Position numbers and translations under genes: made by a program. This document shows, piece by piece, positions 3,751-8,715 of a DNA stretch of 64,000 nt (position 1 is its first letter; each line of letters opens with the position of its first letter). Source of the DNA: Gordonia sihwensis NBRC 108236 (GTDB taxonomy: Bacteria > Actinomycetota > Actinomycetes > Mycobacteriales > Mycobacteriaceae); contig NZ_BANU01000010.1 in assembly GCF_000333035.1 (NCBI RefSeq), positions 62,001-126,000 on the forward strand. The letters run 5' to 3'. The notes below the pieces were generated by a model that was not told where the DNA came from, searched no databases, and saw nothing but the letters and a program-made list of their open reading frames with translations.

Positions 3751-4001
3751 GTAATCGGCGGTGGCGACGGTCACGATGGGGCGGTCCTGCGGCGCAAGGG
3801 CGGTGGGGTCGCGCTGCAGGTCGCCGGTTTTCATCAGCGTGCGCAAAATTCTGTGCAGGTGACGCGGATGCGGGTGCCGAGTGCCGGGGTCGACGATCGG
3901 AGGTGAAGTGCGACAGTGGATACTCTTAGAGTCGACACGATTCCTCTGCGCTCATCAGCCCTGAGTGCGGGGTGGGAAACGTGCAGTGAAGGAGAAGCGT
4001 A
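3751..4001. other. Intergenic region upstream of fdxA
   Basis: About 250 bp between the operator pair and fdxA. I see no convincing gene on either strand. A short palindrome ACTCTTAGAGT lies at 3922-3932 and overlaps a plausible -10 element (TACTCT) for fdxA. A clear AAGGAG ribosome-binding site precedes the fdxA start. Confidence 0.5.
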
Positions 4002-4328
4002 GTGACGTACATCATCGCTGAGCCCTGCGTCGATGTCCTCGACCGGGCCTGTGTTGAAGAGTGCCCGGTGGATTGCATCTACGAGGGCGGGCGCATGCTC
4101 TACATCCAGCCCGACGAGTGCGTCGACTGCGGTGCGTGTGAGCCCGTCTGCCCGGTGGAGGCCATCTTCTACGAAGACGACGTGCCCGACGAATGGGAGC
4201 CGTACGTGAGCGCCAACGTCGACTTCTTCGAAGAACTCGGATCGCCCGGCGGTGCCAGCAAGGTCGGCAAGACCGCGTTCGACCCGGCATTCGTCAAGGC
4301 ACTGCCGCCGATGGGCGAAGAGGGCTGA
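4002..4328 (+). CDS. fdxA: 7Fe ferredoxin (3Fe-4S/4Fe-4S)
   Basis: Cytosolic electron carrier of 108 aa, the FdxA/FdxC type of actinobacteria. Cysteines visible are Cys9, Cys17, Cys21 and Cys25 in the first cluster region and Cys40, Cys43, Cys46 and Cys50 in the second (CVDCGACEPVCPVEAI). The spacing of the first group is typical of seven-iron ferredoxins with one 3Fe-4S and one 4Fe-4S cluster. The GTG start follows AAGGAGAAGC. It lies just upstream of dapC, as fdxC does in M. tuberculosis (Rv1177-Rv1178). Its redox partner cannot be told from this sequence. Confidence 0.95.
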   Translation: MTYIIAEPCVDVLDRACVEECPVDCIYEGGRMLYIQPDECVDCGACEPVCPVEAIFYEDDVPDEWEPYVSANVDFFEELGSPGGASKVGKTAFDPAFVKALPPMGEEG

Positions 4329-4335
4329 TCGACCG

Positions 4336-5478
4336 GTGAGTGCCGCGCCCGGTTCCAGCAGCCTGCCGACCAGTCGTCTGCGGCCGGTGAGTTCCGGTCT
4401 GCCCGACTTCCCGTGGGACACCATCGCGGATGCGAAGGCCGCGGCCGCGGCGCACCCGGACGGGATCGTCGATCTGTCCGTCGGCACCCCCGTCGACCCG
4501 GTGGATCCGGTGATCCGGGACGCGCTCGCCGCGTCGTCCGAGTTTCCGGGGTATCCCGCGACGGTCGGCACACGTGAGCTCCGCGACGCGGCGGTCGGCG
4601 CACTCAGCCGCCGCTTCGGCATCACCGGCCTCGACGAGTCGTCGATCCTGCCGGTGATCGGCACCAAAGAGGTGATCGCGGGGTTCCCGGCCCAGATCGG
4701 CGTGCCCGCGGGCGACCTCGTGGTGATTCCGGAGGTCGCGTACCCGACGTACGAGGTGGGTGCGCTCCTGGCCGGTGCGCAGGTGCTGCGCGCGGACACC
4801 GTCGACGCGATCGGCGACCGCGAGCCCGCGCTGATCTACCTGAACAGTCCGTCGAATCCCACCGGTCGCGTGCAGAGTGCGGCGGAGCTCAAGGTCATCA
4901 TCGACTGGGCGCGCGAGCGCGGCGCCGTCGTCGTGTCGGACGAGTGCTACCTCGGTCTCACCTGGGAGGGGTCGGCCCACTCCGTTCTCCACCCCGAGGT
5001 CTGCGGCGGCGACCATCGCGGCCTGATCGCCGTGCACTCGCTGTCGAAGGTGTCGAACCTGGCGTCGTATCGGGCCGGTTTCCTGGCGGGCGATCGCGAG
5101 TTGATCGCCGAACTCCTCTCGGTGCGCAAGCACGCAGGCATGATCGTCCCGTTCCCGATCCAGGGAGCGACGGTGGCCGCGCTGAACGACGACGTGCACG
5201 TCGACGCTCAGCGCGAGCGCTACCGTGTCCGTCGCGACAAGCTGCGAACCGCTCTGCTCGGCGCGGGCTTCTCCATCGACCACTCCGAGGCGGGCCTGTA
5301 TCTGTGGGCGACGCGCGGCGAGGACTCCCGCACCTCCCAGCGCTGGCTCGCCGAGCGCGGCATCCTCGTGGCACCCGGCGACTTCTACGGTCCCGCCGGA
5401 GCCCAGCACGTCCGCATGGCGCTGACCGGCACCGACGAGCGCATCGACGCCGCCGTCGCCCGACTCTCCCGGAAGTGA
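4336..5478 (+). CDS. dapC: N-succinyldiaminopimelate aminotransferase DapC
   Basis: PLP-dependent class I/II aminotransferase of 380 aa that makes N-succinyl-LL-diaminopimelate in the succinylase branch of lysine and cell-wall diaminopimelate synthesis. Visible features are the substrate-loop NSPSNPTGRV, the PLP-binding lysine in SLSKVSNLASYRAGF (Lys238), and the DECYLGLTWEG segment before it. The GTG at 4336 is chosen because it lies 7 bp after the fdxA stop and gives the family's usual length; an open frame extends further upstream but overlaps fdxA. The pathway enzymes dapD and dapE lie just downstream. The last base of its stop codon is the first base of a 58-bp hairpin. Confidence 0.93.
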   Translation: MSAAPGSSSLPTSRLRPVSSGLPDFPWDTIADAKAAAAAHPDGIVDLSVGTPVDPVDPVIRDALAASSEFPGYPATVGTRELRDAAVGALSRRFGITGLDESSILPVIGTKEVIAGFPAQIGVPAGDLVVIPEVAYPTYEVGALLAGAQVLRADTVDAIGDREPALIYLNSPSNPTGRVQSAAELKVIIDWARERGAVVVSDECYLGLTWEGSAHSVLHPEVCGGDHRGLIAVHSLSKVSNLASYRAGFLAGDRELIAELLSVRKHAGMIVPFPIQGATVAALNDDVHVDAQRERYRVRRDKLRTALLGAGFSIDHSEAGLYLWATRGEDSRTSQRWLAERGILVAPGDFYGPAGAQHVRMALTGTDERIDAAVARLSRK

Positions 5479-5535
5479 ATCCCCGATACGCCGACTTCTT
5501 GGCGATAATCGACGAAGGTCGGCGAATCGGGGATT
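5478..5535. repeat. Hairpin R1 at the dapC stop, flanking the nuclease gene
   Basis: Imperfect palindrome: the left arm at 5478-5498 (starting AATCCCCGATACGCCGAC) pairs with the right arm at 5514-5535, with one A/A mismatch and one bulged base in about 21 bp. It begins on the last base of the dapC stop and ends 3 bp before the stop of the convergent nuclease gene. The outer sequence ATCCCCGATACG...CGAATCGGG recurs in R2 at the other end of that gene, with a different but still complementary inner stem. It could be a bidirectional terminator, though there is no long T-run, or an element boundary. Confidence 0.8.
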
Positions 5536-5538
5536 TGT

Positions 5539-6357
5539 TTACGTCGACGCCGCTTTGAGTTGCTTCCGGTGGACGCCACGCTTGAGCAACTCGGCGATGA
5601 GCGGGCCCACCCGATCCCACTGATAGACGACCTGTTGGTACGTGAGCCGGATCGGGTCGTAGCCGAGTGCGCGCGACTGCAGGTCGCGGAGCCGGTCCTT
5701 CTCGAACTGGCGGGGATCGGCATGGTATTCGTAGCCGTCGACCTCGATGATCATCGACGTGCCGACGACGAGGTCGACACGTCCGACCTCGGGGACGGCC
5801 ACCTGCGTTCGAATCCGCAGGTTCGGCGCTCGCAGTCGCAGTCGGACCAGCGTCTCCGTCCCAGATTCGGCACGCCCGTCCACCAAGGTCAGTGCGCGCT
5901 GCACCTGCTTCGGCGTCCCACTCAGCTCGGCCTCGAGCGCGGACGGAGTCAGCAGTCGACGATTGAGTATCGAATCGCAGACCACCACGAAATCTTCGGT
6001 GGACAGGCAGCGCGCGGCGTGCCGGAGCGCCGTGGGAAGTTCGTCGACGGCGCTCGTGACTCTCGGTGGTCGTCCGTGATGCCGGCACCAGGCCGGATGG
6101 TTCCGGACCGACGACGTCGATCCTCGGACGTGAAGCTTCGTCGTCGGCGGCACCCACACGCCGTAATGTCGCAGCGCCGTCGCGCAGGTCAGCACTCCGC
6201 CCGCCGACACGGCGCGAACCACCTCCGGATGAGCGGTCGGCTCGGCGAGCCACCCGTGCCGCAGCTGGCGCAACCCGCCCTCTGCGATCAGTTTGTCAAG
6301 CTCTGCGCGAGACATCGTCTCCAGCAGCTTCCCCCGTTTGAACACCCCCGAGTCCAT
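5539..6357 (-). CDS. DUF559-type nuclease-fold protein with AbiEi-like N-terminal region
   Basis: 272-aa protein of unproven function. The N-terminal part (about residues 10-110) resembles the winged-helix/AbiEi-like region of actinobacterial DUF559 proteins (TMSRAELDKLIAEGGLRQLR). The C-terminal part (about 165-265) looks like a Vsr/DUF559 PD-(D/E)xK nuclease: Asp195 in GRVDLVVG, then Glu205 and Asp207 in IIEVDGYEYH, followed by an Arg-rich helix and ALGYDPIRLTY. The upstream ATG has no visible Shine-Dalgarno, so translation may be leaderless; Met15 is an alternative. The gene is tightly bracketed by hairpins R1 and R2 and inserted between convergent dapC and dapD. No partner toxin or methylase gene is adjacent. 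Confidence 0.75.
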   Translation of the reverse strand: MDSGVFKRGKLLETMSRAELDKLIAEGGLRQLRHGWLAEPTAHPEVVRAVSAGGVLTCATALRHYGVWVPPTTKLHVRGSTSSVRNHPAWCRHHGRPPRVTSAVDELPTALRHAARCLSTEDFVVVCDSILNRRLLTPSALEAELSGTPKQVQRALTLVDGRAESGTETLVRLRLRAPNLRIRTQVAVPEVGRVDLVVGTSMIIEVDGYEYHADPRQFEKDRLRDLQSRALGYDPIRLTYQQVVYQWDRVGPLIAELLKRGVHRKQLKAAST

Positions 6358-6382
6358 TGGGGCATCGTGCTACACGCGGGTA

Positions 6383-6468
6383 CTTCCCCGTATTCGAATC
6401 CCCGATACGGGTCGAACTCGACCCGAATCGGGAAATCGGCGTGATTCGGGGATTCGAATACGAGGAAG
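6383..6468. repeat. Nested hairpin R2 upstream of the nuclease gene
   Basis: Outer arms at 6383-6407 and 6444-6468 (core GTATTCGAATCCCCGA) match at 22-23 of 25 positions. An inner hairpin pairs 6401-6415 with 6418-6432 with a single A/A mismatch and a 2-nt loop. Inner and outer left arms overlap, so the two folds are partly exclusive. The outer sequence ATCCCCGATACG...CGAATCGGG is shared with R1. It lies 25 bp upstream of the nuclease start and 26 bp from the dapD stop, so it could be a control element, a terminator for dapD or an element end. Confidence 0.8.
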
Positions 6469-6493
6469 GCGGCCGGGGCTGGAGTCTCGCGCG

Positions 6494-7459
6494 TCAGTTG
6501 TGCGCGTGCAGCGCCTCGTTGAGGGCGATGCCGTCGCCTTCCTTGGCGGTCACCTCGACCGCGCCGGTGGTGCTGTTGCGGCGGAACAGCAGGTTCGACT
6601 GTCCGGCGAGCTCGCGGGCCTTGACGACCGATCCGTCCGGGCCGGTCACCTTGGTGCCTGCGGTGAGGTAGAGGCCGGCCTCGACCACGCAGTCGTCGCC
6701 GAGCGGGATCCCGCAGCCGGCATTGGCGCCGAGGAGACAGCGCTGCCCGATGGTGATGATCTCCTTGCCGCCGCCGGAGAGGGTGCCCATGGTGGACGCG
6801 CCGCCGCCGATGTCCGAGCCGTCGCCGATGACGACGCCGGCCGAGATGCGGCCCTCGACCATCGAGGTGCCGAGAGTTCCGGCGTTGAAGTTCACGAAGC
6901 CCTCGTGCATCACGGTGGTGCCCGGCGACAGGTGCGCGCCCAGGCGCACGCGGTCGGCGTCACCGATGCGGACGCCCTTCGGGGTCACGTAATCGACCAT
7001 GCGGGGGAACTTGTCGATCGAGTACACGGTCACCTGGCCGCGGGCACGCAGCCGGGCGCGGGTGGTCTCGAATCCCTCGACCGCGCACGGGCCGAAGTTG
7101 GTCCAGACCACGTTGCTCAGCAGGCCGAACTGCCCGTCGAGGTTGGCGCCGTGCGGCTTGATCAGGCAGTGCGAGAGCAGATGCAGTCGCAGGTATACGT
7201 CGTGGGCGTCCGCGGGCGCGACCGCCAGGTCGGCGATGACTGTGCGGACCGCGATCGTCCGGACGCCGCGCGCCTCGTCCGTTCCGACCAGCGGACGCAG
7301 GTCGGCGGGGATCTCGTCGCCGGTCAACTCGGTGGATCCGGTGGTTCCGGGATCCTGGGTCAGTTCGGGGGAGGGGTACCACGTGTCGAGGACGACGGCC
7401 GATCCGTCGTTGTCCCACACGGTGGCGATTCCGATGGCAGCAGCACCTTGAGTAGTCAC
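6494..7459 (-). CDS. dapD: 2,3,4,5-tetrahydropyridine-2,6-dicarboxylate N-succinyltransferase DapD
   Basis: Transfers succinyl from succinyl-CoA to tetrahydrodipicolinate in lysine/diaminopimelate synthesis; 321 aa, the actinobacterial long type (Rv1201c). The C-terminal half carries hexapeptide repeats of a left-handed beta-helix, for example the [20 protein letters not shown] region and [16 protein letters not shown]. The GTG at 7459 (protein starting [15 protein letters not shown]) is chosen over an upstream ATG because the homologous proteins begin there and the extra 23 residues are Arg-rich and unlike the family. It is divergent from dapE, with 149 bp between the two starts. Confidence 0.93.
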
Positions 7460-7608
7460 GGCGACGAGTCTATCGAGCGCGGCGTCGCCGCCATGCACGC
7501 GCAGTAGACGCGACGCCCGGCGACGCAACCCCCGTCCCGGACCGGGGTTCTGTCGCCGAAGGTCGCGTCTGCGGTGCTCGGGCGGCGCCCGGCCTACGAT
7601 GGACCACC

Positions 7609-8715
7609 GTGAGCACTTCGAGGCTGGACCTGACCGCCGATCCCATCGAACTGACCGCCGCGTTGGTCGACGTCCCCAGTGTGAGCCGCGACGAATCGGA
7701 GATCGCCGACGCGGTGGAGGCCGCTCTCCGCGCGCAGACCGACGGCTTCGAGGTGGTCCGCCACGGCAACTGCGTCCTCGCGCGGTCGCATCGAGGCAAG
7801 CCGACGCGGGTGATCCTCGCCGGTCATCTCGACACCGTGCCGATCGTCGACAACGTCCCCTCGCGGCGGACCGTCACCGACGAGGAGGGCGAGGTGCTGC
7901 ACGGCTGCGGGACGGTGGACATGAAATCGGGAGACGCGGTGTTCCTCCACCTGGCCGCGACCCTCGAGGACCCCGCGCACGATCTGACGCTGATCTTCTA
8001 CGACTGCGAAGAGATCGCCGCGGAGTTCAACGGACTGGGGACCATCGAGCGCGAACTGCCTGACTGGCTCGAGGGCGACGCGGCGATTCTCGGCGAACCG
8101 ACAGCGGGCCAGATCGAGGCGGGATGCCAGGGGACGCTCCGCGTCCGATTCACCGCAAGCGGAACGCGCGCACATTCTGCGCGAGTCTGGATGGGCGACA
8201 ATGCGATTCACAAACTCGGCCGGATGCTGACGACCCTCGGGGCGTATGAACCGCGGCGCGTCGACATCGACGGCTGCGAATACCGGGAAGGACTGTCGGC
8301 AGTCGGGATTCACGGGGGCGTCGCGGGAAATGTGATTCCCGACGAGGCCTACGTCGATGTGAATTTCCGCTTCGCCCCCGACCGTTCACCGGAGCAGGCC
8401 TTCGACCACGTCCGGGAGGTCTTCGCCGCGGACCTCGCCGACGGGACGCTGACGGCGACGGTGACCGACTCGGCCGCGGGGGCGCTCCCGGGGCTGTCTC
8501 ATCCGGCCGCCGCCAAGCTGGTGGAGGCCGCGGGCGGACGCTTCCGGGCGAAGTACGGGTGGACGGACGTGTCGCGGTTCGCGGCCCTGGGCATCCCCGC
8601 GGTGAACCTGGGTCCGGGTGACCCGAGCCTGGCGCACCGCGTGGACGAGCGCGTTCCGGTAGTGCAGATCACCGAGGTCGCTGAGATCCTGCGCACCTAT
8701 CTCACCGCCGACTGA
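7609..8715 (+). CDS. dapE: Succinyl-diaminopimelate desuccinylase DapE
   Basis: Zinc-dependent M20-family amidohydrolase of 368 aa that removes succinate to give LL-diaminopimelate. Metal-ligand motifs are visible: GHLDTVP, then [13 protein letters not shown], and DCEEI with the catalytic glutamate pair. The dimerisation domain is in the middle ([20 protein letters not shown]), and a late His ligand lies near the C-terminus (PSLAHRVDE). Start is GTG, with little leader evident. It matches Rv1202 in position next to dapD. Together with dapC and dapD this puts three steps of the succinylase pathway within 4.4 kb. Confidence 0.94.

Follow-up and report, generated by a model that had tools for sequence, protein, structure and literature searches.

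A DUF559-type nuclease gene bracketed by its own palindromes in Gordonia: a candidate mobile single-gene unit

Introduction

Palindromic repeats that belong to a particular protein gene are described for the REPtron. According to passages of one account (PMC8266576), the gene of TnpAREP, or RAYT, adjoins copies of a palindrome that are also dispersed in the same genome, and these palindromes are specific to the gene. The same passages describe TnpAREP as an HUH tyrosine enzyme and the REPs as repeats of 20-50 nt, which are preceded by a conserved tetranucleotide, mostly GTAG (PMC8266576). TnpAREP is given there as mostly single copy, with no evidence of mobility (PMC8266576).

The EDxHD homing endonucleases offer a second comparison. 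In passages of a study on one of them, I-Bth0305I is described as dimerising on a target of nearly 60 bp (PMC3943268). The Vsr mismatch endonuclease, DUF559/NGO0050 and the AbiEi antitoxin of type IV toxin-antitoxin systems are considered below. IS200/IS605 elements and palindromic MITEs have hairpins at both ends and occur as short non-autonomous copies. In Pfam, DUF559 itself still figures as a protein of unknown function.

Here we describe a unit of Gordonia in which a DUF559-type nuclease gene lies between two palindromes. A search of the open-access literature, including DUF559 together with palindromes, mobile elements and AbiEi, found nothing on such a unit, which does not imply its absence from print. 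The neighbouring topics that came up were papers on REP/RAYT, on a mitochondrial double-hairpin and on EDxHD enzymes.

Results and Discussion

The unit between dapC and dapD

The window, i.e. the whole 64-kb stretch of Gordonia sihwensis DNA that was analysed, contains the following features:

5470..6462, no strand: whole unit palindrome-nuclease gene-palindrome, 993 bp, between dapC and dapD
5470..5543, no strand: R1, a 74-nt palindrome at the 3' end of the nuclease gene, 73.6 bits (covariance model built with R1 included)
6389..6462, no strand: R2, a 74-nt palindrome 31 bp upstream of the nuclease start codon, 74.6 bits (covariance model built with R2 included)
5539..6357, minus strand: gene of a predicted nuclease of 272 amino acids, with an AbiEi-like half and a Vsr-fold half (DUF559, MTES_1575)
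5878..6348, minus strand: residues 4-160, AbiEi-like half, presumed to bind DNA
5563..5871, minus strand: residues 163-265, Vsr-fold nuclease domain

The gene order is dapC (plus strand), nuclease gene (minus) and dapD (minus), with dapC convergent with the nuclease gene; dapC and dapD are also its neighbours in the stretch 4200-7700. R1 reaches into both genes, covering the final 9 nt of dapC and the final 5 nt of the nuclease gene.

An earlier note on this DNA had placed hairpins on both sides of the nuclease gene, which is borne out by shuffled folds, an inverted-repeat scan and the identity between R1 and R2. The surroundings of R1 and R2 fold on either strand with z of -5.2 to -5.5, and 0 of 200 shuffles were as good. 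In our own scan of the 64-kb window six inverted repeats scored at least 14; R2 ranks first and R1 sixth, and of the six just these two span more than 40 nt. Their ungapped identity is 45/74, while 20,000 random pairs of 74-mers from the window reached at most 38/74. The fold of R2 differs between its two strands.

The hairpin positions of the earlier note hold, and the repeat unit measures 74 nt instead of a 58-nt core, with the commonest form CGTAAATGAATCCCCGAT...ATCGGGGATTCATTTACG. Among BLAST matches between copies elsewhere, five hairpin-to-hairpin matches end exactly at 74 nt and the others within a few to about 20 bases.

A known RNA family is out, since a search of 5300-6600 against Rfam gave no match. 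A phage origin was rejected as well: 56 stretches of viral contigs fit a pattern, none of them confirmed, and a phage collection gave one match of 31%. The same applies to a plasmid origin, with three plasmid records that matched over dapC or (judging by coordinates) dapD only.

The predicted nuclease

The earlier note had assigned the protein to the Vsr/DUF559 type; Pfam DUF559 and MTES_1575 both match, though below their curated cut-offs. The predicted structure model has a pLDDT of 94.5. Its nuclease domain is Vsr-like with 3r3p, 3hrl and 1cw0 as top structure matches, and profile matches to the PDB agree. By this model, the Vsr-fold half appears closest to the homing endonuclease I-Bth0305I, with plain Vsr scoring nearly as well. 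Within the domain D195 is invariant, and E205, D207, H212, D221 and D225 are invariant or nearly so. These conserved acidic and His residues and the Vsr-like fold agree with an EDxHD-type catalytic fold, the agreement with 3r3p being at the level of the fold. The AbiEi-like half gives a weak structural match. In another unit, L020 (G004:C1:4208881), a long Asp-Gln repeat forms the end of the nuclease, close to the downstream palindrome.

The AbiEi similarity, together with a nuclease domain, might indicate the remnant of a type IV toxin-antitoxin system or a stand-alone defence nuclease with self-protecting palindromes. However, no AbiEii toxin gene is adjacent at the window locus, where dapC and dapD are the neighbours. 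A difference from the AbiEi antitoxin is that the AbiEi-like half is fused here to a nuclease domain. A known defence system is out, with PADLOC reporting just AbiEi (E=0.029) and an NCBIfam search of the nuclease returning nothing. Moreover, dispersed palindromes and flipped units would be left unexplained, and we find this reading barely credible.

Comparison with described systems

The unit resembles the REPtron, in the passages cited above, in that a gene for a DNA-cutting type of protein lies beside copies of a palindrome that are dispersed and specific to the gene (PMC8266576); in Gordonia, too, palindromes are dispersed in association with their cognate gene. The differences concern the enzyme, which has HUH and a catalytic tyrosine in TnpAREP and a predicted Vsr-like fold in Gordonia, and the palindromes, which are described there as 20-50 nt long with mostly GTAG, whereas those of Gordonia are about 74-76 nt long and follow no GTAG rule. 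By this comparison, the unit would work like a REPtron or a homing gene, yet it departs from the REPtron in two of the features compared, the enzyme superfamily and the type of palindrome.

With the EDxHD homing endonucleases, represented by I-Bth0305I, the nuclease shares the predicted Vsr-like catalytic fold. It differs from them in that no intron or intein was seen around the Gordonia gene, that the AbiEi-like half is additional, and that the gene stands between two full palindromes instead of splitting one target. Homing endonucleases cut alleles without their gene, into which it is then copied; in Gordonia there are sites with and sites without the unit (dapC-dapD, locus L115 and the G002 locus). 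Unlike the Vsr mismatch endonuclease and DUF559/NGO0050, the unit has no adjacent methyltransferase and possesses an extra N-terminal half as well as palindromes. The hairpins at both ends and the short non-autonomous copies recall IS200/IS605 and palindromic MITEs. In contrast to IS200/IS605 and to DDE elements with their MITEs, the unit contains no HUH or DDE transposase; in place of the Y1 HUH transposase TnpA of IS200/IS605, its sole gene encodes a protein with a predicted Vsr-like fold. By eye, no target duplication was seen around lone copies. Judged by its sequence, the unit appears categorically new relative to the known families, with a mechanism that we infer.

Occupancy of the dapC-dapD junction

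We found dapD in all 59 Gordonia genomes searched, and 30 of the dapD loci were read. In 3 of 30 loci the nuclease gene adjoins dapD, namely in the window, in Gordonia hydrophobica (G049) and in a Gordonia MAG (G024). Both dapC and dapD were found in 23 of the 30 loci, and 21 of these 23 junctions lack the nuclease gene: 14 have a gap below 210 bp, and the remaining seven contain 307-1172 bp of other sequence. No lone window-type palindrome was seen in these 21 junctions; the empty sites carry other hairpins (several, by eye) or other sequence.

At the G. hydrophobica locus a convergent-gene hairpin also lies between R2 and dapD. In the MAG (L045, G024:C104) the first 40 residues of the nuclease are unmatched, R1 is missing, dapC was not found, and a lone palindrome is located about 4 kb away at C104:15291. 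The unmatched residues, the missing R1 and the nearby lone palindrome suggest a rearrangement between palindromes. Long hairpins of a different family, with a CGAGGGCATA core like the Gordonia soli type, occupy the dapC-dapD junctions L060 and L061 (G066 and G054), where the window has R1 and R2; G054 also shows a weak match to the G. soli palindrome.

Matched palindromes across the nuclease family

The nuclease family is present in 56 of 59 Gordonia genomes at E 1e-20. At least 121 Gordonia loci had a match, 110 after the removal of duplicates, and 107 covered more than 80% of the query; these 107 are the better-scoring among the matches listed and not a random draw. We defined a matched pair as a local match score of at least 16 between two segments, one comprising the 400 bp upstream and the other 460 bp that surround and follow the stop. 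By this measure 61 of the 107 genes (57%) match their own flanks, compared with 267 of 11,342 mismatched pairs (2.4%), and 46 genes have no matching pair at the cut of 16. The window unit itself scores 14, is therefore under the cut, and is not one of the 61. Among the control flanks, those of dapD matched in 0 of 26 cases and the distal flanks of the same nuclease loci in 3 of 105. Outside Gordonia, 22 of 35 loci were matched versus 2.1% of mismatched pairs, with five of the 22 matches shorter than 30 nt; the loci derive from Jongsikchunia, Williamsia, Tsukamurella, Aestuariimicrobium, Rathayibacter, Propionibacteriaceae and others.

Of the 55 Gordonia units with a score of at least 18, 44 have matched pieces of 45 nt or longer, which in 38 of these measure 62-96 nt. 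The flanking repeats fold with z below -2 in 80 of 88 cases (mean -5.4). Of 71 pairs in which both partners have changed between the upstream and the downstream copy, 44 still pair, versus 25 of 75 in four slid controls together. As far as sequence comparison can tell, palindromes bracket the nuclease gene family in general.

The place of the copies and their agreement across the gene bear on two other explanations. The hairpins could simply be bidirectional terminators of the ordinary kind, or insulators, on either side of a cargo or defence gene, as R1 lies between convergent genes, several gene-less dapC-dapD sites have other hairpins (by eye), and the downstream copy starts before the gene end in 34 of the 55 units and at most 18 bp after it in 43. 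However, terminators need not match across a gene, yet the nuclease genes do so in 57% versus 2.4%, with 0 of 26 for dapD, and the palindrome sequence goes with the nuclease (see below). Moreover, no terminator-like site was called at 4000-8000 by a simple scan, which requires a T run and may miss actinobacterial terminators. The cross-gene matching is specific to nuclease genes, which excludes ordinary terminators as the sole explanation, and we hold a terminator account to be very improbable.

The second explanation is an operator or regulon, where an AbiEi-like regulator binds palindromes at the gene ends, for autoregulation or control of termination, and also at lone sites, while the nuclease domain would have its role at other places and inversion would be passive, by recombination of repeats that lie close together. 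AbiEi proteins bind inverted repeats, and the AbiEi-like half, although a weak match, would fit such a role. In the 55 units the end of the upstream copy lies 19-257 bp ahead of the estimated start, which is a promoter-like place, and the flips described below require repeats alone. On the other hand, autoregulation does not need a second matched palindrome at the stop codon, and neither the presence and absence of whole units nor a lone palindrome at a shared locus is called for. We consider an operator unlikely.

The palindrome sequence goes with the protein

Palindromes and proteins were compared among 43 Gordonia units with long repeats. At a protein identity of at least 0.7 the palindromes were similar in 20 of 20 pairs, at 0.6-0.7 in about half of 21, and below 0.45 in at most about 1% of 657 pairs. 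Descent explains part of this agreement, because many close pairs share a locus. We also compared the matching within units to that between units, with no preselection by palindrome. At 60-70% protein identity the values were 0.45 within and 0.25 between units (n=65), at 55-60% 0.28 and 0.06 (n=104), at 50-55% 0.41 and 0.09 (n=220), and at 45-50% 0.22 and 0.01 (n=249 of at least 249 pairs). The two palindromes of one unit thus appear to stay alike while those of different units diverge, and the palindrome sequence evidently goes with the nuclease protein.

Lone palindromes and covariation

A simple pattern made from R1 and R2 matches in 6 of 59 genomes (reversed control 0), at three places in the window genome, three in G049, six in G024 and one each in G020, G060 and G062; the top three genomes are those with the nuclease gene beside dapD. 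A covariance model from 14 copies found 36 places in 8 of 59 genomes at E 0.01, each place counted once and the 14 included, most of them in the two other genomes with the gene beside dapD. Among the 39 loci given, the nuclease gene of G055 has a hairpin of the window kind with 27-29 bits, and two paralogues in the window genome carry such a hairpin at their 3' ends with similar scores of 27-29 bits.

Twelve of the 14 window-family copies are 74 nt long and the other two 71 and 75 nt. They begin with CGTA, CGGA, CGCA or AGTA, and CGTAG occurs solely in the G020 copy. The arms comprise 18 nt with about 38 nt between them, and several copies of sister species have variant arms that mostly still pair (by eye). 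Covariation was assessed by five measures on these 14 copies. In the arms 90.9% of cells are paired; eight cells are changed on both sides, as high in 1 of 500 shuffles; and the covariation score is 0.128 versus 0.066 when shuffled, as high in 0 of 500. The two other measures failed to beat the shuffles, namely 3 of 18 pairs with changes on both sides (208/500) and the number of further pair types (150/500). The earlier note had asked whether the palindromes are more than terminators without covariation, and to this we have a partial answer, the covariation in the window family being modest.

A second example is the upstream palindrome of G. soli (G061), found at 12 places in this genome (20 matches, both strands), of which two flank the gene and ten are lone. 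Elsewhere it has seven matches in G050 and no more than three in any other genome, with some match in 20 of 59. The ten lone copies have stable folds of about 76 nt. In the window family two lone copies, one in G049 and one in G024, were compared with relatives; for each, the other two genomes that carry the gene beside dapD lack the copy at the corresponding place. A target-site duplication around lone copies was not seen by eye, the empty sites compared being too diverged for certainty. By these searches, lone cognate palindromes are dispersed in genomes that carry the gene. At L284 (G058) a hairpin of another family stands where G049 has a lone window-type palindrome (L176, G049:C9), and such junctions may be shared landing sites.

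Presence, loss and inversion of units

At locus L115 of Gordonia hankookensis (G047), 12 of 20 relatives fetched have the flanking genes 5-79 bp apart; these gaps are too short for a palindrome in most cases, and by eye it is absent. G050 has a gap of 33 bp here, with 89% identity on one side.

The 107 loci give 179 same-locus pairs, in 29 of which the unit is inverted relative to its neighbours, while 150 keep the orientation. The 29 inverted pairs belong to 4 of 21 locus clusters, and none of the orientations contradict one another. A safe minimum is one change per locus; the best trees, with weak nodes, give six. Between G022 and G002 the neighbours align on one strand up to and through the palindromes and the unit on the other, with 84-88% identity. 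Between L022 and L029 the inverted block extends from the outer edge of one palindrome to the outer edge of the other. The breakpoints lie at palindromes at both loci where they can be placed, and at the other two at least one partner has no matched pair. Passive recombination between the repeats or separate insertions could account for the inversions.

Several states coexist at the G002 locus: G053 is empty (34 bp), G023 has a lone palindrome in a gap of 123 bp, and the others carry the unit in either orientation. The best scores of the G023 palindrome against the seven units of this locus were 19.5, 17, 15, 13.5, 11.5, 10.5 and 6.5. By comparison, 46 other units gave at most 11, two units of a related family 13.0 and 10.5, and 500 random segments at most 13.5. 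It therefore beats the background maximum of 13.5 against just three of the seven comparable units of its locus. Taken together, the alignments indicate that the palindromes are the edges of the unit and that a single site occurs in several states: empty, with just a palindrome, or with the unit in one or the other orientation.

Two further loci were conspicuous. In L352 (G018:C1:1183300-1186600) a transposase insertion (Pfam DUF772, DDE_Tnp_1), presumably IS1182-like, lies in the middle of the upstream palindrome with ATAG on both sides, and other elements may use these palindromes as targets. In L321 (G068:C1:1328700-1331500) the outer edge of the downstream palindrome directly adjoins a segment of about 2.1 kb, which encodes an MFS transporter and a TetR-type regulator; this segment is absent from the closely related G047.

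Movement seems to be rare, because 150 of the 179 same-locus pairs keep their orientation and the window-family copies are diverged. That many units keep locus and orientation would also suit a domesticated system like the REPtron, in which a stable resident nuclease spreads lone palindromes and the movement of its own gene is incidental, and so would the ties of dispersed palindromes to genomes with the cognate gene. Against this stand the enzyme, which is not of the HUH type, and the longer palindrome without a GTAG rule. Moreover, in the passages on TnpAREP it is mostly single copy (PMC8266576), whereas Gordonia has several different units per genome and whole units that are absent or flipped. 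We regard this explanation as distinctly unlikely.

A model for the unit

We propose that the nuclease gene and two copies of its own cognate palindrome constitute a mobile single-gene unit in Gordonia, which moves, flips and is lost at these palindromes, and we give this reading a probability of roughly 0.6. A mobile element was already suggested in the earlier note, which has gained support from the dapC-dapD junctions without the gene (21 of 23), the other copies, the general bracketing and the lone cognate palindromes. Both the empty junctions and the further hairpin copies that it had proposed to look for were found, so the gene and its hairpins are not the same everywhere.

In the mechanism that we envisage, a protein dimer would bind the palindrome with one AbiEi-like half per arm, and the Vsr-fold domains would cut between the arms. 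Repair of the break from another copy would spread palindromes, could insert the gene at a palindrome in either orientation, and would keep the two flanking palindromes alike. Recombination between the flanking copies would invert the unit or remove it, leaving a lone palindrome behind. Binding, cutting, dimerisation and the enzyme as the driver of these changes are what we infer. Passive recombination on its own could explain flips and deletions, but the dispersal and the gene-specific matching would hardly follow from it. For the palindromes we favour a role as protein-binding or cleavage sites, because of the protein architecture and the unit inversions that break at palindromes; a role as structured RNA may exist as well but is not needed.

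More tentatively, and with slightly less than even confidence, we suggest that such units may represent a new class of palindrome-homing elements. Here, a fusion nuclease of AbiEi and Vsr type would recognise its own palindrome, about 75 bp long, which would serve as the border and also as the target, with non-autonomous spread of palindromes, re-entry in either orientation, flanks kept alike by break repair, and many diverged specificities across actinobacteria.

Overall, one large group of DUF559-type nucleases gains a concrete partner, a gene-specific palindrome that also occurs alone, together with sites that lack the unit and units that are flipped. One protein and one 74-bp DNA would suffice for a direct test of the model. 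If it is true, dispersed Gordonia hairpins that would otherwise be taken for terminators are accounted for. If the nuclease acts on its own palindrome, this would be a second, unrelated bacterial solution to what REP/RAYT do, and the family would provide a natural library of matched long-target nucleases and their sites.
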